Assembly (NCBI RefSeq): GCF_030169785.1
Contig: NZ_CP125854.1
Coordinates: forward strand, 434,001-498,000
Reading direction: 5' to 3'
Length of the DNA stretch: 64,000 bases
DNA from: Bdellovibrio sp. 22V
GTDB taxonomy: Bacteria; Bdellovibrionota; Bdellovibrionia; Bdellovibrionales; Bdellovibrionaceae
The translations under genes were made by a program, and so were the position numbers. The notes beneath the pieces are model-generated. The model ran no database searches. It was not told the origin of the DNA and saw only the letters and a list, made by a program, of their open reading frames with translations. Shown here one piece after another: positions 6,460 through 23,591 of this stretch (its first letter is position 1; each line of letters begins with the position of its first letter).

Positions 6460-6894
6460 ATGTGGAAAGAGTTTAAAACCTTTATCATGCGCGGCAATGT
6501 TCTCGACATGGCCGTGGGTATCATCATCGGTGCTGCGTTTGGCAAGATCGTATCTTCCTTCGTCGCAGATATCCTGACGCCGGTTCTTAGCTTGGCTTTG
6601 GGCAAAGTGGATTTCTCGAATTTGTTCGTGGCATTGAATGGCGAAACTTATGCTACTTTAGATGAAGCAAAAAAAGCAGGCGTGGCTACCGTCAACTACG
6701 GACTCTTCATCAATATGGTGTTGGACTTTATTATTGTTGCGTTTGCTATCTTCATTATTGTGAAAATGGCGAACAAACTTAAAAGAGCCGAGGAACCGCC
6801 TCCTCCAGGAACCAAAGAGTGCCCAGAGTGCCTCTCTGTTATTCCTGTTAAAGCTCGTAAGTGCTCTCACTGTACGTCATCTCTTCCCGCTTAG
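6460..6894 (+). CDS. mscL: Large-conductance mechanosensitive channel MscL with zinc ribbon
   Basis: 144 residues. It starts with the conserved N-terminal helix and TM1 ([21 protein letters not shown]...), has a periplasmic loop and TM2 (about 79-101), and ends with a Cys4 element CPEC...CSHC that could bind zinc. The channel opens when the membrane is stretched and releases solutes during osmotic downshock. The zinc-ribbon tail is found in a subset of MscL proteins. A strong terminator follows at 6905, so the DUF481-mscL unit ends here. Confidence 0.95.
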
Positions 6895-6904
6895 GATTTC
6901 TGTA

Positions 6905-6933
6905 AAAGCCCGGTATTTTTCCGGGCTTTATTC
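6905..6933 (+). terminator. Rho-independent terminator after mscL
   Basis: AAAGCCCGG / CCGGGCTTT stem with a short T-rich loop (TATTTTT) and a following TTTATTC tract, 10 bp after the mscL stop codon. Confidence 0.85.
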
Positions 6934-6971
6934 TATATCCGTTTTTACAATTCTCGTCTCACTTTGATACG

Positions 6972-6999
6972 TAAACTTTTTGAGCGCACCTGCCGATAA
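6972..6999 (+). promoter_or_regulatory. FliA (sigma-28)-like promoter
   Basis: TAAACTTT followed after 12 bp by GCCGATAA. The -10 is identical to the enterobacterial sigma-28 consensus GCCGATAA, and the -35 differs from TAAAGTTT at one position. The spacer is one base longer than the usual 11. The predicted start is about 40 bp upstream of the ATG at 7046. In Bdellovibrio, FliA is known to drive attack-phase transcription; applying that here is inference. Confidence 0.6.
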
Positions 7000-7000
7000 T

Positions 7001-7016
7001 TGGTACTGGTATTGCA
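7001..7016 (+). promoter_or_regulatory. Sigma-54-like promoter
   Basis: TGGTACTGGTATTGCA matches the consensus TGGCAC-N5-TTGCA with one mismatch and has the required GG-N10-GC spacing (GG at 7002, GC at 7014). The predicted start, near 7027, lies 19 bp before the ATG at 7046. It directly follows the FliA-like element. Confidence 0.65.
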
Positions 7017-7045
7017 CCATCTATTTTCATCGGGGAGGAACTCAA

Positions 7046-8488
7046 ATGAATAAGATTTCAGACAAAAACGAAAGAACAGTTGTCAAAATCTTTATCAACA
7101 TCCTGGCTTGCGCGTCTTTGCTTTCCTACTCACCGGGCGCATTTGCTGAGACGACAACTAATAACAACAATACTAATAATAATGGCTCTGGTAACACGCA
7201 AAACCAAGCGCCTCAACAGCCTTATGGTTTTGGAATGGGCTATCCACCAGACTATAAAGATGTGCGTGAATCAGAAGCTTGTCGTCAGCTGACAGATAAG
7301 ATTGATGAAGCGACTCGTAAAATCGGCGAAGCCTGCAGAAAAGCGGGTTTATCTGGTGGCTCAAACTGTGTTGCTAAAGCGAAGAACTGCGCAGGCACTT
7401 CCGGCGAAGATTCGTTCAATACAGTGGATGCATTTGCGACAGTAATGGGTTTACCTGCAGGAAGTCTTGCAAACGTCAGTGCAGCATGTCCGCAAATGAG
7501 TGGCCGCGATTACTTCACTGAAAAAGATAAAATTCAAAAAGAGATCAAAGACACTGAAAAAGAGTTGGCGGATCTCAACGACGATAAAGCTCAGATCCAA
7601 GATGACTACAATAAAGAGATGGAAGAGATTCAAAAAACTCTGACAGAAGCGCAAGAGAACTATAAAAAGAAAGAGTTGGAGATCGGCGAAAAAGAGCGTG
7701 AGCGTATTGCTGAATTTAATGCCAGCCAAACACAAGCTAAAGAAGAAATGCGCAAAAAAGCGACGGAAATTCTGCGTGTCCGTGGGCAACTGATTCAATC
7801 TCAGCGCGACAAGGCCTTGAAGTTGATCGCGATGACAGAGGCTTCGGGCAAACGCGCCTGCATGAAAGCTGTTACGGATGCGAGAAAGAGTTACGAAAGT
7901 GTTTCTGCGTCTACAAGTGCAAATCACATTGCGCAAGCTAAGAAAAAGAAACAAGAGCTTATCAACATCTATAATGACTGTATGGATGCTTTCGATCAAC
8001 AACGTGTGGCTTTGAATGAATCCAAACGTCAAGAGCAAGATGAGCTCACGAAGCAGATCAATGACTTGCAAACGAGCATGGATGAAGTGCAGAACAGTTT
8101 GAATCTTGCACAAAACCAGCTCGAAGAAATGAAACAGGCTTCCGCAAAAGAAAAGAACGATGCTTTACAAAGCGTGATCGACCTCGGTAACCGTTTGAAT
8201 CAAAGAATGCAGGCCGCTTATACAAAAATGCAAGAGAACCTAAAAACTCTCGCTGCAAAAAGCGCGAGCCTTCAGGCCGCATTGAATCGCGCCAATCAGT
8301 CGCTTATGACCTTAGGTCCTGCTCCGAAGAATAAGAGTTCGGACTACGCTCCTAGCGATGCTTCATCAGAGATCGAAGCACAGATCAGCATCATCGAGCG
8401 CGCCGATCGCAATGCCCCTTCGTCTTGCAGATCCAAAGTTTCTGATTCGAAGAGAGAAGCCCTAGACTCTCTCAAAGGTACAAAATAA
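7046..8488 (+). CDS. Exported coiled-coil protein of unknown function
   Basis: 480 residues from the ATG at 7046, which has a strong GGGGAGGAA ribosome site 5 bp upstream. The open frame runs back to 6980, but that stretch holds the two promoter elements. A signal sequence ends at about GAFAE, followed by an Asn/Thr/Gln-rich low-complexity linker. A short Cys-containing domain (CRQLTD...ACRKAG...CVAKAKNCAG) comes next, then a long highly charged coiled coil (roughly 160-420) rich in Lys/Glu/Gln, with two further cysteines. It is probably periplasmic or surface-attached. It is monocistronic, and dual FliA/sigma-54-type promoters suggest growth-phase control. The family is not recognised. Confidence 0.85.
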   Translation: MNKISDKNERTVVKIFINILACASLLSYSPGAFAETTTNNNNTNNNGSGNTQNQAPQQPYGFGMGYPPDYKDVRESEACRQLTDKIDEATRKIGEACRKAGLSGGSNCVAKAKNCAGTSGEDSFNTVDAFATVMGLPAGSLANVSAACPQMSGRDYFTEKDKIQKEIKDTEKELADLNDDKAQIQDDYNKEMEEIQKTLTEAQENYKKKELEIGEKERERIAEFNASQTQAKEEMRKKATEILRVRGQLIQSQRDKALKLIAMTEASGKRACMKAVTDARKSYESVSASTSANHIAQAKKKKQELINIYNDCMDAFDQQRVALNESKRQEQDELTKQINDLQTSMDEVQNSLNLAQNQLEEMKQASAKEKNDALQSVIDLGNRLNQRMQAAYTKMQENLKTLAAKSASLQAALNRANQSLMTLGPAPKNKSSDYAPSDASSEIEAQISIIERADRNAPSSCRSKVSDSKREALDSLKGTK

Positions 8489-8570
8489 TATCCCAGTCTT
8501 CGGACCAGTGTCCCTAGACCCTCCCTATTCACACTGCTAGAATGGGGGCTTGTTAAAGGAGCCCCCACCA

Positions 8571-11243
8571 GTGTTAAAAAAGATCGTACTGTCTATTGTC
8601 GCCCTCGGCCTTATTGGCATTCTCAGTCTCTACTTAATTGTTAAGTCAGTTCAATCCGGCCTTCCGCAATTGATCACTGTGAAAGACTATCAGCCATTGC
8701 TTGTAAGTCAGGTGTATGACCGACACGGTAAAAAGATCGGTGAATTCTTTCGTGAGCGCAGAACACTTGTTCCTTACGACAAAATTCCAAAGAACTTAGT
8801 GAACTCATTCCTTGCTGCCGAAGACGACCAGTTCTTTGAGCATAAAGGCATCAATCCTCAAGCAATTTTCCGTGCCGCTCTTGCCAACCTTCGTGCTGGT
8901 CGTTCTGTTCAAGGGGGATCGACGATCACGCAACAGGTGGCAAAAACACTTTTACTTTCGTCTGAAAAAACGCTGACACGTAAACTGCGTGACATCCTTT
9001 TGGCCATTGAAATGGAAAAGAACTTAAGCAAAGAAGACATTCTTTTCCTTTATTTGAACCAAATTTACTTCGGGCAAGGCGCTTATGGTGTTGAGCAGGC
9101 GGCGCAAACATATTTCCGTAAACCTGTCAGTAAGTTGGAACTTCCAGAGATGGCGATTCTTGCCGGCCTTCCTCAGGCTCCGAGCAAATACTCTCCCGTA
9201 CGTAATCCTTTAAGAGCGAAAGAAAGACAAATTTACGTTCTTCGTCGTATGGCTGACGTGGGTTACATTTCCAAAGATGAAGCAGAAAAAGCGATCAAAG
9301 AACCTGTGAAAGTCTATGTTCGTGAGAACTATGAAGAGTTCGCTCCGTTTTTCCTAGAAACGGTTCGTCAGCTTCTTGTCGTGCAATTGGGTGAGGACAT
9401 GGTTCTTGATAAGGGACTTCGCATTCACACAAGTCTTGATCTCAAAAAGCAGCTTGCCGCACAAGAATCCGTGATGGCAGGTTTAAAATCCTTGGATAAA
9501 CGCCAAGGCTACCGTGGTCCTTTGAAAAATCTCTCTGATGAAGATGCGATCACAGAGTTCCTAAAAGAAACGCAAAAGAAATTGATCTCCGACTTCACAC
9601 CGGAAAGAACGATTCTTCCGGATGGAACTTTCGCTGATATCGTTCCGGTTAAAAACCCAAAAGATACTAAAGAACATCCGTTGCTTCCTCCCTACATCAA
9701 GCTGAACGACACCGTTCAAGCTGTCGTTCAAAATGTTGATGATGGCTTGGGACTTGTTTTCGTAACTTTGCCAGACGCGCAGGGTTTGATTGACATAGAG
9801 ACAATGACTTGGGCGCGCAAGCCCGACACGGAAGTGCGCTACGATTTGGGTCAGATTAAGAAACCTTCAGAGGCTTTGAAAAAAGGCGACGTGATTCTTG
9901 TAAAAATCACGGCCGACAAATTTGAATCAAGCCGTTTGCAAAATTCTAAAAAGAAAACTCCCAATCAGGCTCTCCCTGACTTTGCGAAATATTTAGCTTT
10001 GGAATTGGATCAAGAACCGCAAGTCGAAGGGGCTTTGATTTCATTCGACCAGACATCTCAAGATGTGGTGGCGATGGTGGGTGGTTCTAGCTTTGCGAAA
10101 AGCGAATTCAATCGCGCTATTCAAGCTCCTCGTCAAACGGGCTCCGCATTTAAGGCCATTGTTTACGCTTCGGCCTTGGATAAAGGTTATACGCCGGCAA
10201 CTCCAATCATGGACGCTCCTATCGTTTACGAAGAAGGCGGTGCCGCTGACGATTCTGAAGGACAAGGCGATCCAAAAGTTTGGAAACCATCCAATCACTC
10301 GAAAAGCTTTGGTGGGGATATTCTTTTCCGCAATGCTTTGGTGAAATCTCTTAATATCCCAACTGTAAAAATCATCGAAGACGTCGGCGTGCCTTGGGCG
10401 ATGGATTATGCAAAACGCCTGGGTATCTACAGTCCTCTGAATCCTGATTTTACATTGGCTCTTGGCTCCAGCAGCGTGACTTTGTATGAGATGACAAAAG
10501 TCTTTGCAGAGTTCGGCCGCCTTGGAAAAAGAATTTCTCCGCTGCTGATCCACAAAGTGGAAGATGCTCAAGGCAAAAATCTTTTGCAAACAATGACATT
10601 GGACACACGTTTTGAAAAAGAAATCAAAACGGCGGCTGATGACTTCGAACAACGTCGCAAGGCTTATTTGGAAGTCGCTGGCGACCCTGCAAAGCTCGAA
10701 GAGTTTAAAAAGAACAATAAGAATGCAAAACTCGACGAAAGCATTTTCTTCCAGGATCCAGAGCAATTGATTCGTCCAACAACCGCTTATGTGATGACGA
10801 CATTGTTAAAAGGCGTTGTTGAAGATGCCGGGGGTACTGGCGGACGAGCACGCGCTGTTGGCCGTGAAGTCGCTGGTAAAACCGGATCTACAAACAACTA
10901 CTTTGACGCGTGGTTTATTGGTTACAGCCCGCAAATCGCAACAGGTGTTTGGGTGGGATTCGACAAAGAAAAGAGTATCGGTAAGGGCGAAGTCGGTGGA
11001 CGTGCGGCGTTACCTATCTGGGTGGACTATATGAAAGCCGCTCACGACGGACTGCCTCAGATGACTTTCCCTGTGCCTGACGGTATCGTGTTTGCTAATA
11101 TTGATAGCGAAACTGGAAAGCTTGCTTCCGCTTCAACAAAGAAAATTATTCGCCAAGCTTTCGTCGAAGGAACAGAACCAACGGCTGCGGCTAATAAAGC
11201 TGAAGAAGCCACAGACTTTTACAAACAGGATCTCTCTGAATGA
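8571..11243 (+). CDS. mrcA: Class A penicillin-binding protein 1A (transglycosylase/transpeptidase)
   Basis: 890 residues from the GTG at 8571, chosen because AAAGGAG (8555-8561) is correctly spaced; the TTG at 8550 lies upstream of that site. It has one N-terminal membrane anchor, then a GT51 glycosyltransferase domain (EDDQFFEHKGI, QGGSTITQQVAK, LNQIYFGQGAYG), an intermediate OB-like region, and a transpeptidase domain with GSAFK (SxxK), LGSSSVT (SxN-like) and KTGSTNN (KTG). It polymerises and cross-links peptidoglycan at the inner membrane's outer face. The C-terminal tail is short. It overlaps uvrA by 4 bp (ATGA), so the two are coupled. Confidence 0.96.
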   Translation: MLKKIVLSIVALGLIGILSLYLIVKSVQSGLPQLITVKDYQPLLVSQVYDRHGKKIGEFFRERRTLVPYDKIPKNLVNSFLAAEDDQFFEHKGINPQAIFRAALANLRAGRSVQGGSTITQQVAKTLLLSSEKTLTRKLRDILLAIEMEKNLSKEDILFLYLNQIYFGQGAYGVEQAAQTYFRKPVSKLELPEMAILAGLPQAPSKYSPVRNPLRAKERQIYVLRRMADVGYISKDEAEKAIKEPVKVYVRENYEEFAPFFLETVRQLLVVQLGEDMVLDKGLRIHTSLDLKKQLAAQESVMAGLKSLDKRQGYRGPLKNLSDEDAITEFLKETQKKLISDFTPERTILPDGTFADIVPVKNPKDTKEHPLLPPYIKLNDTVQAVVQNVDDGLGLVFVTLPDAQGLIDIETMTWARKPDTEVRYDLGQIKKPSEALKKGDVILVKITADKFESSRLQNSKKKTPNQALPDFAKYLALELDQEPQVEGALISFDQTSQDVVAMVGGSSFAKSEFNRAIQAPRQTGSAFKAIVYASALDKGYTPATPIMDAPIVYEEGGAADDSEGQGDPKVWKPSNHSKSFGGDILFRNALVKSLNIPTVKIIEDVGVPWAMDYAKRLGIYSPLNPDFTLALGSSSVTLYEMTKVFAEFGRLGKRISPLLIHKVEDAQGKNLLQTMTLDTRFEKEIKTAADDFEQRRKAYLEVAGDPAKLEEFKKNNKNAKLDESIFFQDPEQLIRPTTAYVMTTLLKGVVEDAGGTGGRARAVGREVAGKTGSTNNYFDAWFIGYSPQIATGVWVGFDKEKSIGKGEVGGRAALPIWVDYMKAAHDGLPQMTFPVPDGIVFANIDSETGKLASASTKKIIRQAFVEGTEPTAAANKAEEATDFYKQDLSE

Positions 11244-16043: not shown

Positions 16044-16068
16044 GACAGTCAATGAAAGGAAAGAACTT

Positions 16069-17625
16069 ATGATTAATTGGGATGAGTTTGAACATATACA
16101 TGTGATCAACAAGCTCAAACAAATTCTCAGCGCGTGGTGGAACATTGACGTGGTTTTCACGGATGAGCGTGGCGCCCTTAAAGGGTATGACTCTGATAAA
16201 GTCACTTTCAACAATCCAGCTATCAGTGCTCTTGTAAAAAAAGAAGCAGGCCAAGCTAGCATTGCAGAGTTAGTTTCTAAATCTTTGGATGATCTTCGCA
16301 CTTCGCAAAATCGCTTTAGCCTACGCAAGTGGGACATTGTTGGTTTCGACGTTGGTGTTTTCCCAATCATGATTGAAAATGATTGCGTGGGGACTGTTGT
16401 TGCGATGGGCTTCTTCCGAGAAGCGAACTTCACAGCTCGTATGAGTGAAATCCGTGAGCGCTTGGCTGCTTTCGGCATGTCTGGTGAAGTGATTGAGAAA
16501 TGTTTGGGCAAGTTGAAATTCTTGGACGATCAAGAGCGCGCTCACTTCGGCGAGCTTTGCGAACTTGTGGCTCAAGAGATTGTAACTCTTCACTTGGAAA
16601 TTTCTTCTCGTGAAGACCGCATCAAAGAATTGAACAAAGAATTGGGCAACCGTTTCAAGTATGACAACATGATCGGTAAATCTAAACCAATGCAGTCTTT
16701 GTATGCTCTTCTTGATAAGATCAAAGGTGCGGACTCTACTGTGCTGGTGCAAGGTGAAAACGGTACTGGTAAAGAGTTGATTGCAAAATCAATCCACTAC
16801 AATTCCAACCGTAAAGACAAACCTTTCATTATCCAAAACTGTTCTGCATTCAATGACAACCTCTTGGAATCTGAACTTTTCGGTCACGTGAAGGGCTCGT
16901 TCACAGGCGCTCTAAAAGATAAAAAAGGTCTTTTCGAGATGGCTGATAAAGGAACTTTCTTCCTTGACGAGATCGGTGATACATCTCCGCAAATGCAAGT
17001 TAAACTTCTTCGCGTATTGCAAGAAGGTACTTTCATGCCAGTAGGTGCGACAGAGTCTAGAAAAGTTGACGTGCGCATCGTAGCAGCGACAAACCGCAAC
17101 TTGAAAGAGATGGTAGAGCAAGGAACATTCCGTGAAGACTTGTACTATCGCTTGAATGTTATCAACATCCGCGTTCCGCCTCTTCGTGAAAGAAAAGAAG
17201 ACATTCCATTCCTTGTGGATTTCTTCTTGAGCAAAATCCACGATCAGCAAGGCGGTCCAAAACGTCAAATCACGAAACGTGCATTGGAAAAGTTGTATGA
17301 CTATCCATGGCCAGGTAACGTGCGTGAATTGCAAAATGAAATCGAAAGACTTTGTGTTCTTTCCGGCGACGAAACAAAATTGATGGCGGAACTTCTTTCT
17401 CCAAAAGTTTTGGAAGCTGGCGAAAAGAACAAAGTTCAAGGTTCCCGTTTGCAAGGTAAGTTGAAAGATGCGTTGGAAGATCTTGAGCGCGAAATGATCC
17501 GTGAAGGTCTTCGCCGCACAGGTTGGAATAAATCCAAACTTGCAAAAGAATTGGGTATCAGCCGCGCAGGTCTTATCATGAAGGTCGAAAAATACGGCCT
17601 CGATAAACGTAAACTCGCTCGCTAA
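16069..17625 (+). CDS. Sigma-54-dependent transcriptional activator (PocR/GAF-like sensor, AAA+, Fis-type HTH)
   Basis: 518 residues from the ATG at 16069, preceded by AAAGGAAAG. An N-terminal sensory domain (about 1-180) resembles ligand-binding PocR/GAF-type folds and lacks a receiver aspartate pattern. The central AAA+ domain has Walker A GENGTGKE, a sigma-54 contact loop reading GSFTGA instead of GAFTGA, Walker B GTFFLDEIGD, and arginine-finger region FREDLYYRLNV. A C-terminal Fis-type helix-turn-helix (GWNKSKLAKELGISRAGL) binds DNA. Such proteins open sigma-54 promoters using ATP. The two sigma-54-like promoters in this window (7001, 17874) are obvious candidate targets, but this is inference. 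Two terminators follow. Confidence 0.93.
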   Translation: MINWDEFEHIHVINKLKQILSAWWNIDVVFTDERGALKGYDSDKVTFNNPAISALVKKEAGQASIAELVSKSLDDLRTSQNRFSLRKWDIVGFDVGVFPIMIENDCVGTVVAMGFFREANFTARMSEIRERLAAFGMSGEVIEKCLGKLKFLDDQERAHFGELCELVAQEIVTLHLEISSREDRIKELNKELGNRFKYDNMIGKSKPMQSLYALLDKIKGADSTVLVQGENGTGKELIAKSIHYNSNRKDKPFIIQNCSAFNDNLLESELFGHVKGSFTGALKDKKGLFEMADKGTFFLDEIGDTSPQMQVKLLRVLQEGTFMPVGATESRKVDVRIVAATNRNLKEMVEQGTFREDLYYRLNVINIRVPPLRERKEDIPFLVDFFLSKIHDQQGGPKRQITKRALEKLYDYPWPGNVRELQNEIERLCVLSGDETKLMAELLSPKVLEAGEKNKVQGSRLQGKLKDALEDLEREMIREGLRRTGWNKSKLAKELGISRAGLIMKVEKYGLDKRKLAR

Positions 17626-17889: not shown

Positions 17890-17921
17890 ATAAGAGTCCT
17901 TTCGTAAGGGGTACGTGGTTT

Positions 17922-18797
17922 ATGCAGCACTCAACATTGGACAGCTCTTTCGTAAATCGATTGAAGCAAATTCTCGCTAGCCGCTATGGGAAGGGTTTAC
18001 AGATTCGTCAGTTGATGGATCTGGCGGAATTGAAATCAGGAGAAGAAGCTTTTACGCGGGGGCGTGATCTTCATATTCCTATTCAAGTGAACGGCGCATT
18101 TTTGGGAACCGCCGTCGTTCCTTCGGCTGACGATCTCAACGCCGAAAAAAAACAGGGTGTTACACAACTTGTGCGTATGGTTCTAGAACCAGCCATGTAC
18201 AAATGGTATCTTGAACAAAAGGAATCCAATCTTCTGGAACTGAATAAAGCGCAGTTGGAACTGGATAACGTGCGTTTGTTCGGAGAGTCTCTCCCCACTA
18301 TCGACGACATTTTGAATGATGAAGAGTTGAACGACGACCTGACCGAAGGTCCTGCAAGCGAATTGATTTCTCACCTGATTCATTTGGAAGGTCGCTCTGA
18401 AAACACCAATAAAAAAGTCGCTTTGCAACTGCATGAGCTGACTTCAAGATGGGCCTTTGTACCTTTCAACGATATCAAAGGGCAGCTTCACTCCGCACAA
18501 GATATCGCTAAAATGGGCGCAATGACGATCTTCATCGAAAACGTCGAGAATCTGAACGCGGCTGAGCAAGAACTCGTGCTGGATTACATCTCTGAAGGGC
18601 ACTCAGCAGACGAACCTCTTATCATTACAAGCTCATTGTTAAGTCTTGAAGATCTTGGCAAGTCTTCACTGACGTCCAATCTTGTTGATGAACTGTCCGT
18701 GAATTGTTTCGAGGTCGACCGAGCTCCTCTGACGACGCAAGGTCTTAAAGAGGTCTTGGAGCTTTTCTTCATGAAGGACTCCCCTCTCGACGCTTAA
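17922..18797 (+). CDS. Degenerate sigma-54-activator-like protein, probably without ATPase activity
   Basis: 291 residues from the ATG at 17922 (AAGGGG upstream); the frame extends back to 17856, but a sigma-54-like promoter occupies that part. The N-terminal ~100 residues could be a GAF-like sensory domain (IPIQVNGAFLGTAVVP). The rest has the length and order of part of an AAA+ core: AMTIFIENVENLNAAEQELVLDYI sits where Walker B and sensor regions would be. There is no Walker A GxxxxGK, no GAFTGA loop and no C-terminal HTH. It may be a regulatory partner or decoy for the activator encoded just upstream. The homology is my reading of pattern, not a search result. Confidence 0.7.
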   Translation: MQHSTLDSSFVNRLKQILASRYGKGLQIRQLMDLAELKSGEEAFTRGRDLHIPIQVNGAFLGTAVVPSADDLNAEKKQGVTQLVRMVLEPAMYKWYLEQKESNLLELNKAQLELDNVRLFGESLPTIDDILNDEELNDDLTEGPASELISHLIHLEGRSENTNKKVALQLHELTSRWAFVPFNDIKGQLHSAQDIAKMGAMTIFIENVENLNAAEQELVLDYISEGHSADEPLIITSSLLSLEDLGKSSLTSNLVDELSVNCFEVDRAPLTTQGLKEVLELFFMKDSPLDA

Positions 18798-23562: not shown

Positions 23563-23591
23563 GTCTCAGAATGAAACGATTCGCGCGAATC
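23563..23591. promoter_or_regulatory. TTTCA-type dyad joined to a 14-bp perfect palindrome
   Basis: GTCTCAGAATGAAACG (23563-23578) matches the dispersed dyad motif and runs directly into GATTCGCGCGAATC (23578-23591), a perfect palindrome. The site lies between the TadG-like stop codon and the start of the Gly-rich gene B. It may be an operator or an RNA hairpin separating the two. Confidence 0.45.

Follow-up and report, generated by a model that had tools for sequence, protein, structure and literature searches.

Does the exported-type coiled-coil gene that follows mscL in this Bdellovibrio genome carry promoters of two different sigma classes, or do two short stretches of DNA resemble promoters by chance? 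The window that we analysed, a stretch of 64,000 nucleotides (G000:C1:434001-498000), comes from a single-contig genome of 3,601,631 bases, treated here as Bdellovibrio. A sequence-only reading had placed a FliA-like and a sigma-54-like promoter side by side, the latter with exact GG-N10-GC spacing and both directed at the ATG at 7046, and the abutting FliA-type and sigma-54-type predicted sites were confirmed at every one of these points. The FliA-type -35 TAAAC (6972-6976) lies within TAAACTTT (6972-6979), from which 12 bases lead to the -10 GCCGATAA (6992-6999). The sigma-54-type -24/-12 element TGGTAC-N5-TTGCA follows at 7001-7016, with TGGTAC at 7001-7006, TTGCA at 7012-7016, and GG (7002-7003) and GC (7014-7015) standing 10 bases apart. 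A span of 6972-7016, as that reading drew it, overlooks a third part: a palindrome and putative operator, TCTCACTTTGATA (consensus GTCTCANNNTGAGAC), recognised by its conservation and its family-wide occurrence, which occupies 6957-6969 and begins 15 bases 5' of the -35.

All features of the locus read on the forward strand. The upstream gene, mscL (6460-6894), is followed by a terminator-like inverted repeat, AAAAGCCCGG-loop-CCGGGCTTT (6904-6929), read by eye in the sequence. On the other side of the promoters, a ribosome binding site GGGGAGG (7032-7038) in a conserved CATCGGGGAGG block precedes the coiled-coil gene (7046-8488), whose downstream neighbour encodes a class A penicillin-binding protein. 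A TTG start at 6980 was rejected, as both predicted transcription starts, about 7007 for FliA (from the spacing and offset in sRNA promoters) and 7027-7029 for sigma-54, fall downstream of it. Further along, a strong predicted hairpin at 8531-8574 (-22.2 kcal/mol, z -2.95) pairs part of the penicillin-binding protein gene's ribosome binding site, and similar sequence occurs in relatives.

Taken alone, a FliA-type or a sigma-54-type element is weakly informative. TAAAN{14,17}GCCGATAA has 10 matches in the 3.6 Mb genome versus 3 in the reversed control, and TGGYACN5TTGCW has 8 versus 4. When 211 sampled upstream regions were scanned with a simple score for each promoter class, the FliA score of the site was reached by 5/211 and its sigma-54 score by 2/211 (reversed control, 0/211 for both); if the two are taken as independent, both might coincide by accident at about one gene in each genome. 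Conservation at the orthologous gene throughout the genus rules chance out. The coiled-coil protein has a counterpart in all 24 genus genomes, a set in which the G006 entry is the syntenic L060 rather than L029. The latter (G006:C1:168022-172251) is an additional paralog of the coiled-coil gene, lies outside the syntenic place and lacks the compound promoter. GG-N10-GC with TTGCA stands upstream of 24/24 orthologs and TAAAC upstream of 22/24; 22 have a FliA spacing of N16 and the remaining two one of N15, and the -10 reads CCGATA in 18, ACGATA in 5 and CCGTTA in 1.

Among 19 dereplicated rows, which exclude five near-identical upstreams (L022, L025, L042, L036 and L060), mean pairwise identity reaches 0.94 at the -35, 0.94 at the -10, 0.93 at the -24 and 1.00 at the -12; it falls to 0.53 within the FliA spacer, to 0.46 past the -12 and to 0.23 over 6900-6950. 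The composite CGATAANNGGNACTNNNNTTGC is present in exactly one copy per genome, at the coiled-coil gene, in 23/24 genus genomes; it recurs in 2/42 other family genomes, once at a homologous gene, and the reversed control gave 0/66. That few genes carry both classes, as had been suggested, also held up: a looser pattern (CCGAWA, up to 25 bases, TGGYACN5TTGCW) yielded 25 matches in 66 family genomes, of which 18 are the coiled-coil gene (17 in the genus and one a syntenic gene of G033).

Flagellin upstream regions, tried as a FliA model, contained no correctly oriented CGATA box. CCGATA is thus not a sure FliA mark in this genome, and the model was therefore taken from promoters with listed 5' ends. 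The available portions of the report by Karunker et al. (PMC3627812) give TTAAG-N16-CCGATA for 92 of 140 attack-phase promoters of strain HD100 and tabulate sRNA start coordinates. In G003, an HD100-like genome, a c-di-GMP-I riboswitch was found at the place listed there for merRNA, so the coordinates in those portions hold in G003. The three sRNAs that they list as FliA-driven are preceded in G003 by TAAAG-N16-CCGAAG, TTTAG-N16-CCGAAA and TAAAG-N16-CCGTAA, with the transcript starting 8 bases after the hexamer in two and 12 in the third; TAAAC-N16-CCGATA of the window has the spacing of all three. Compared with the HD100 FliA promoters as far as the same portions (PMC3627812) describe them, the site is alike in its -10 CCGATA, its 16-base spacing and its position at a gene for an exported or surface protein, whereas its -35 is TAAAC instead of TTAAG/TAAAG and it is joined to a palindrome and a sigma-54 element, neither of which those portions mention.

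FliA itself is encoded in this genome (TIGR02479, 281.7 bits against a cut-off of 189.6). The -10 matches in 8/8 letters GCCGATAA, the enterobacterial FliA -10 consensus, which in enterobacteria is used with a spacing one base shorter than N16. The -35 scores 4/5 against TAAAG, having C where the consensus has G; the promoters with listed 5' ends read TAAAG, TTTAG and TAAAG.

The sigma-54-type element agrees with TGGCAC-N5-TTGCW in 10/11 letters. All seven other strict sites in this genome read TGGCAC-N5-TTGCT, from which the window site differs at two bases, and nearly all of its orthologs share this deviation. By-eye reading placed each of the eight strict TGGYACN5TTGCW sites within about 155 bases 5' of a plausible same-strand start, some of them being overlapped by a longest open reading frame that runs back across the site; several precede exported protein genes and one a flgF-like gene (named by reading). 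RpoN is intact and includes its activator-interacting domain (PF00309, PF04963 and PF04552 above cut-off), and the sigma-54 activator domain PF00158 has 17 matches in the genome, 11 of them near full-length. With -24/-12 promoters in general the element shares GG-N10-GC, TTGCA and a genome that encodes RpoN and activators. It departs from typical ones in having TGGTAC for TGGCAC, in overlapping another promoter's predicted start, and in the palindrome 44 bases upstream, nearer than activator sites, which usually lie farther away than that.

Conservation, a spacing as in promoters with listed 5' ends, and intact FliA and RpoN support the dual-promoter reading, in which two sigma classes would serve the exported coiled-coil gene. 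Overlapping sigma-70 and sigma-54 promoters occur at glmY of enterobacteria, which resembles the present case in that one gene is read by two sigma classes; here, in contrast, the predicted pair is sigma-28 with sigma-54, kept at one gene in 24/24 genomes of a predator genus. Sigma-28/sigma-54 and tandem promoters have reportedly been treated in papers on Chlamydia (PMC10597470). Our literature search found no paper on RpoN control in B. bacteriovorus.

Outside the genus, 13 loci hold the coiled-coil gene, recognised by protein match or by position beside the penicillin-binding protein gene, and their upstream regions were scanned over 950 bases in one set and about 335 in the others. A sigma-54-like site scoring at least 8/11 is present in 12/13 loci and one scoring at least 9/11 in 9, as against baselines of 8% and 2%, respectively, in 200-base control windows. 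The palindrome (at least 9/10) was recovered in 11/13 loci, 41-49 bases from the sigma-54-like site in nine and 70 and 26 bases from it in two. Between palindrome and sigma-54-like site, a FliA match of at least 9/11 occurs in 2/13 loci, L219 (genus g8), with TAAAC-N16-CCGATA, and L221 (g20), each of which has all three parts; the idea that the FliA part is limited to the genus was dropped. L044, L047 and L049 carry the sigma-54 element 45 bases 5' of the ATG, as in the window. L222, L226, L232 and L233 showed no exported coiled-coil gene beside PBP1A, while L223, L227, L228 and L231, which are without PBP1A, stand outside the locus counts. At L219 (G033:C19:84500-89500), an exported coiled-coil gene without a protein match to the query occupies the same place under the full three-part promoter, and regulation there seems better conserved than protein sequence.

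Across genera, then, the palindrome and the sigma-54 element look like the best-kept core, and the FliA part, often absent outside the genus, would either be ancient, with frequent loss, or have been gained repeatedly. The sequence-only reading is supported in its two sigma classes; it put FliA first, the part that is kept less often across genera. The wider retention of the sigma-54-like site (12/13 loci versus 2/13 for FliA) would suit an alternative in which only the sigma-54 promoter works and TAAAC...GCCGATAA belongs to another class, ECF or housekeeping, or is a remnant; TAAAC in place of TAAAG points the same way, and AAC at the -35 also suits ECF sigma factors. Yet a sigma-70-class promoter requires just such an arrangement, two separated blocks and between them a variable spacer (15-16 bases), the spacing is identical to that of FliA-type promoters with listed 5' ends, and the -10 is the enterobacterial consensus, and we regard this alternative as unlikely. 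The converse, that only FliA works and the sigma-54-like letters are conserved as the start region or 5' leader of its transcript, appears very unlikely. Such a view draws on the element's position exactly on the predicted FliA start and on its two-base deviation from the genome's usual form, but most loci outside the genus retain the element in the absence of FliA, three of them at an unchanged distance of 45 bases from the ATG, and its GG-N10-GC stays constant around a variable middle.

We consider it probable, from sequence comparison, that the locus holds a conserved compound promoter with two alternating modes, whose best-kept unit would be a palindromic operator plus a sigma-54 promoter, with a FliA (sigma-28) promoter inserted between them. 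Because the predicted FliA start (about 7007) falls inside the sigma-54 element (7001-7016), the two polymerases should exclude each other. During the motile attack phase, FliA polymerase would supply the exported coiled-coil protein. RpoN polymerase would stay closed until a sigma-54 activator fires, placing the protein under a second signal, probably late growth inside prey or a phase change. As long as it is closed it would block FliA starts, and the modes would alternate rather than add. The palindrome would be bound by a regulator that serves sites throughout the genome close to promoters of either class, and this reader would set the choice. Bound sigma-54 polymerase interferes in enterobacteria, and the site could accordingly be read, given the position of the predicted FliA start, as mainly a silencer at which RpoN polymerase without an activator blocks FliA. 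This would leave the retention of the sigma-54 site at loci without FliA unexplained, and we think it quite unlikely relative to a compound promoter with two working modes.

Of the three parts of this putative compound promoter, the palindrome is the most promising unknown. Within the genus it lies exactly 44 bases from the sigma-54 element in 19/24 orthologs and 43, 45, 67 and 71 bases from it in four others; in L027 the best match lies at 80 bases, with a weaker copy next to the -35. L030 and L037 have added bases between palindrome and -35, with both promoters still in register. GTCTCANNNTGAGAC occurs in 346 copies in the 24 genus genomes versus 4 in the reversed control, and is present in 61/66 family genomes (G000-G065). 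A second copy in the window lies at 23564-23576. This genome has at least 38 copies, and among the 38 collected, which come from sequence up to 2.99 Mb, 26 lie in the stretch of about 200 bases 5' of called gene starts, to which 18.6% of the sampled sequence belongs. The genes concerned look exported in 22/34 cases versus 83/211 (p = 0.008, in a test chosen after seeing the genes).

The palindrome is statistically tied to sigma-54-like sites and also to FliA boxes. At distances of up to 200-250 bases from palindromes, sigma-54-like sites of at least 10/11 were found in 6/76 windows versus 2/420 (p = 0.0002), and CCGAWAAG in 11/76 windows versus 21/2100; the 2100-window baseline uses five overlapping positions per gene, which makes its p-values too small, and the 420-window baseline is cleaner. 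The association appeared with windows placed on palindromes, not with fixed windows before called starts, where sigma scores at -220 to +30 were reached by 1/34 versus 2/211 regions for sigma-54 and 3/34 versus 15/211 for FliA. Both in this genome and in G003, a palindrome lies upstream of fliA, within the preceding flhG-like gene, and palindromes precede matching subtilisin-like, lipoprotein and adhesin-like genes (all named by reading). L178 and L174, matching lipoprotein genes of two species, each have a palindrome and a TGGCACCTTCARTGCA site, a candidate further palindrome/sigma-54 promoter. A search of the openly accessible literature, partly swamped by unrelated sequences, found no description of the palindrome.

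A candidate sigma-54 activator is encoded in the window at 16063-17622 on the forward strand, 9 kb downstream of the compound promoter, with an AAA+ domain, a Fis-type helix-turn-helix and a GSFTGA loop. It is 81-98% identical in 24/24 genus genomes (93-98% in most), far better conserved than the coiled-coil gene itself, and 39/42 other family genomes have an ortholog of at least 66% identity. When both are on one contig, it usually lies within about 10 kb of the coiled-coil gene, as judged by comparing coordinates by eye; this linkage is no sign of binding, and the housekeeping genes around it would also preserve the order. After the activator gene, 17910-18794 gives a weak match to a sigma-54-activator domain.

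The gene product, of 480 aa, has a signal-peptide-like start. In a single-sequence structure model (mean pLDDT 72.7) it forms two helices, of 135 and 131 residues, resembling a coiled-coil hairpin, and the only Pfam match is below cut-off. The model and a PDB search returned generic coiled coils only; no relatives were found in phages, and none passed in the genome_contigs collection. The gene order in G003 is uvrA (145762-148710), penicillin-binding protein (148707-151403), the coiled-coil open reading frame (151464-152921) and mscL. According to Table 1 of PMC3593177, a source available in part, uvrA is bd0159; a second uvrA, bd2442, is distant by gene number. Counting on from bd0159 in this order gives Bd0161, which is likely the HD100 ortholog, its numbering being deduced and the gene being the sole uncharacterised one at that place. 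Bd0149, the FliA reporter promoter of PMC12622784, was rejected as the HD100 counterpart; residue 256 of the ortholog is alanine (GCC), and the reported Bd0149 change needs glycine. In the accessible sections of PMC6561027, Bd0161 is listed as hypothetical and placed in class 1, with negative results in attachment, killing and rounding; the transposon mutant BD0161::tn can neither attach to nor kill prey, the killing defect being complemented. Through this deduced counterpart, the gene under the compound promoter is probably needed for prey attachment.

The compound arrangement, kept across the genus, looks like a genuine control switch, and an unusual one. It is possible, though we put it forward tentatively, that an undescribed regulator, shared by the family and controlling the attack programme, has GTCTCA-N3-TGAGAC as its operator, that three inputs meet at the Bd0161-like gene, and that the activator at 16063-17622 reads the palindrome. 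If so, this regulator would act beside FliA and sigma-54 promoters that drive genes for envelope and exported proteins, and its operator also stands 5' of fliA. As of 2013, according to the portions of PMC3627812 available, no motif had been assigned to about one third of the attack-phase promoters mapped in B. bacteriovorus. A conserved palindrome tied to FliA and sigma-54 sites, together with a compound promoter at a probable attachment gene, offers a direct route into the wiring of the phase switch.
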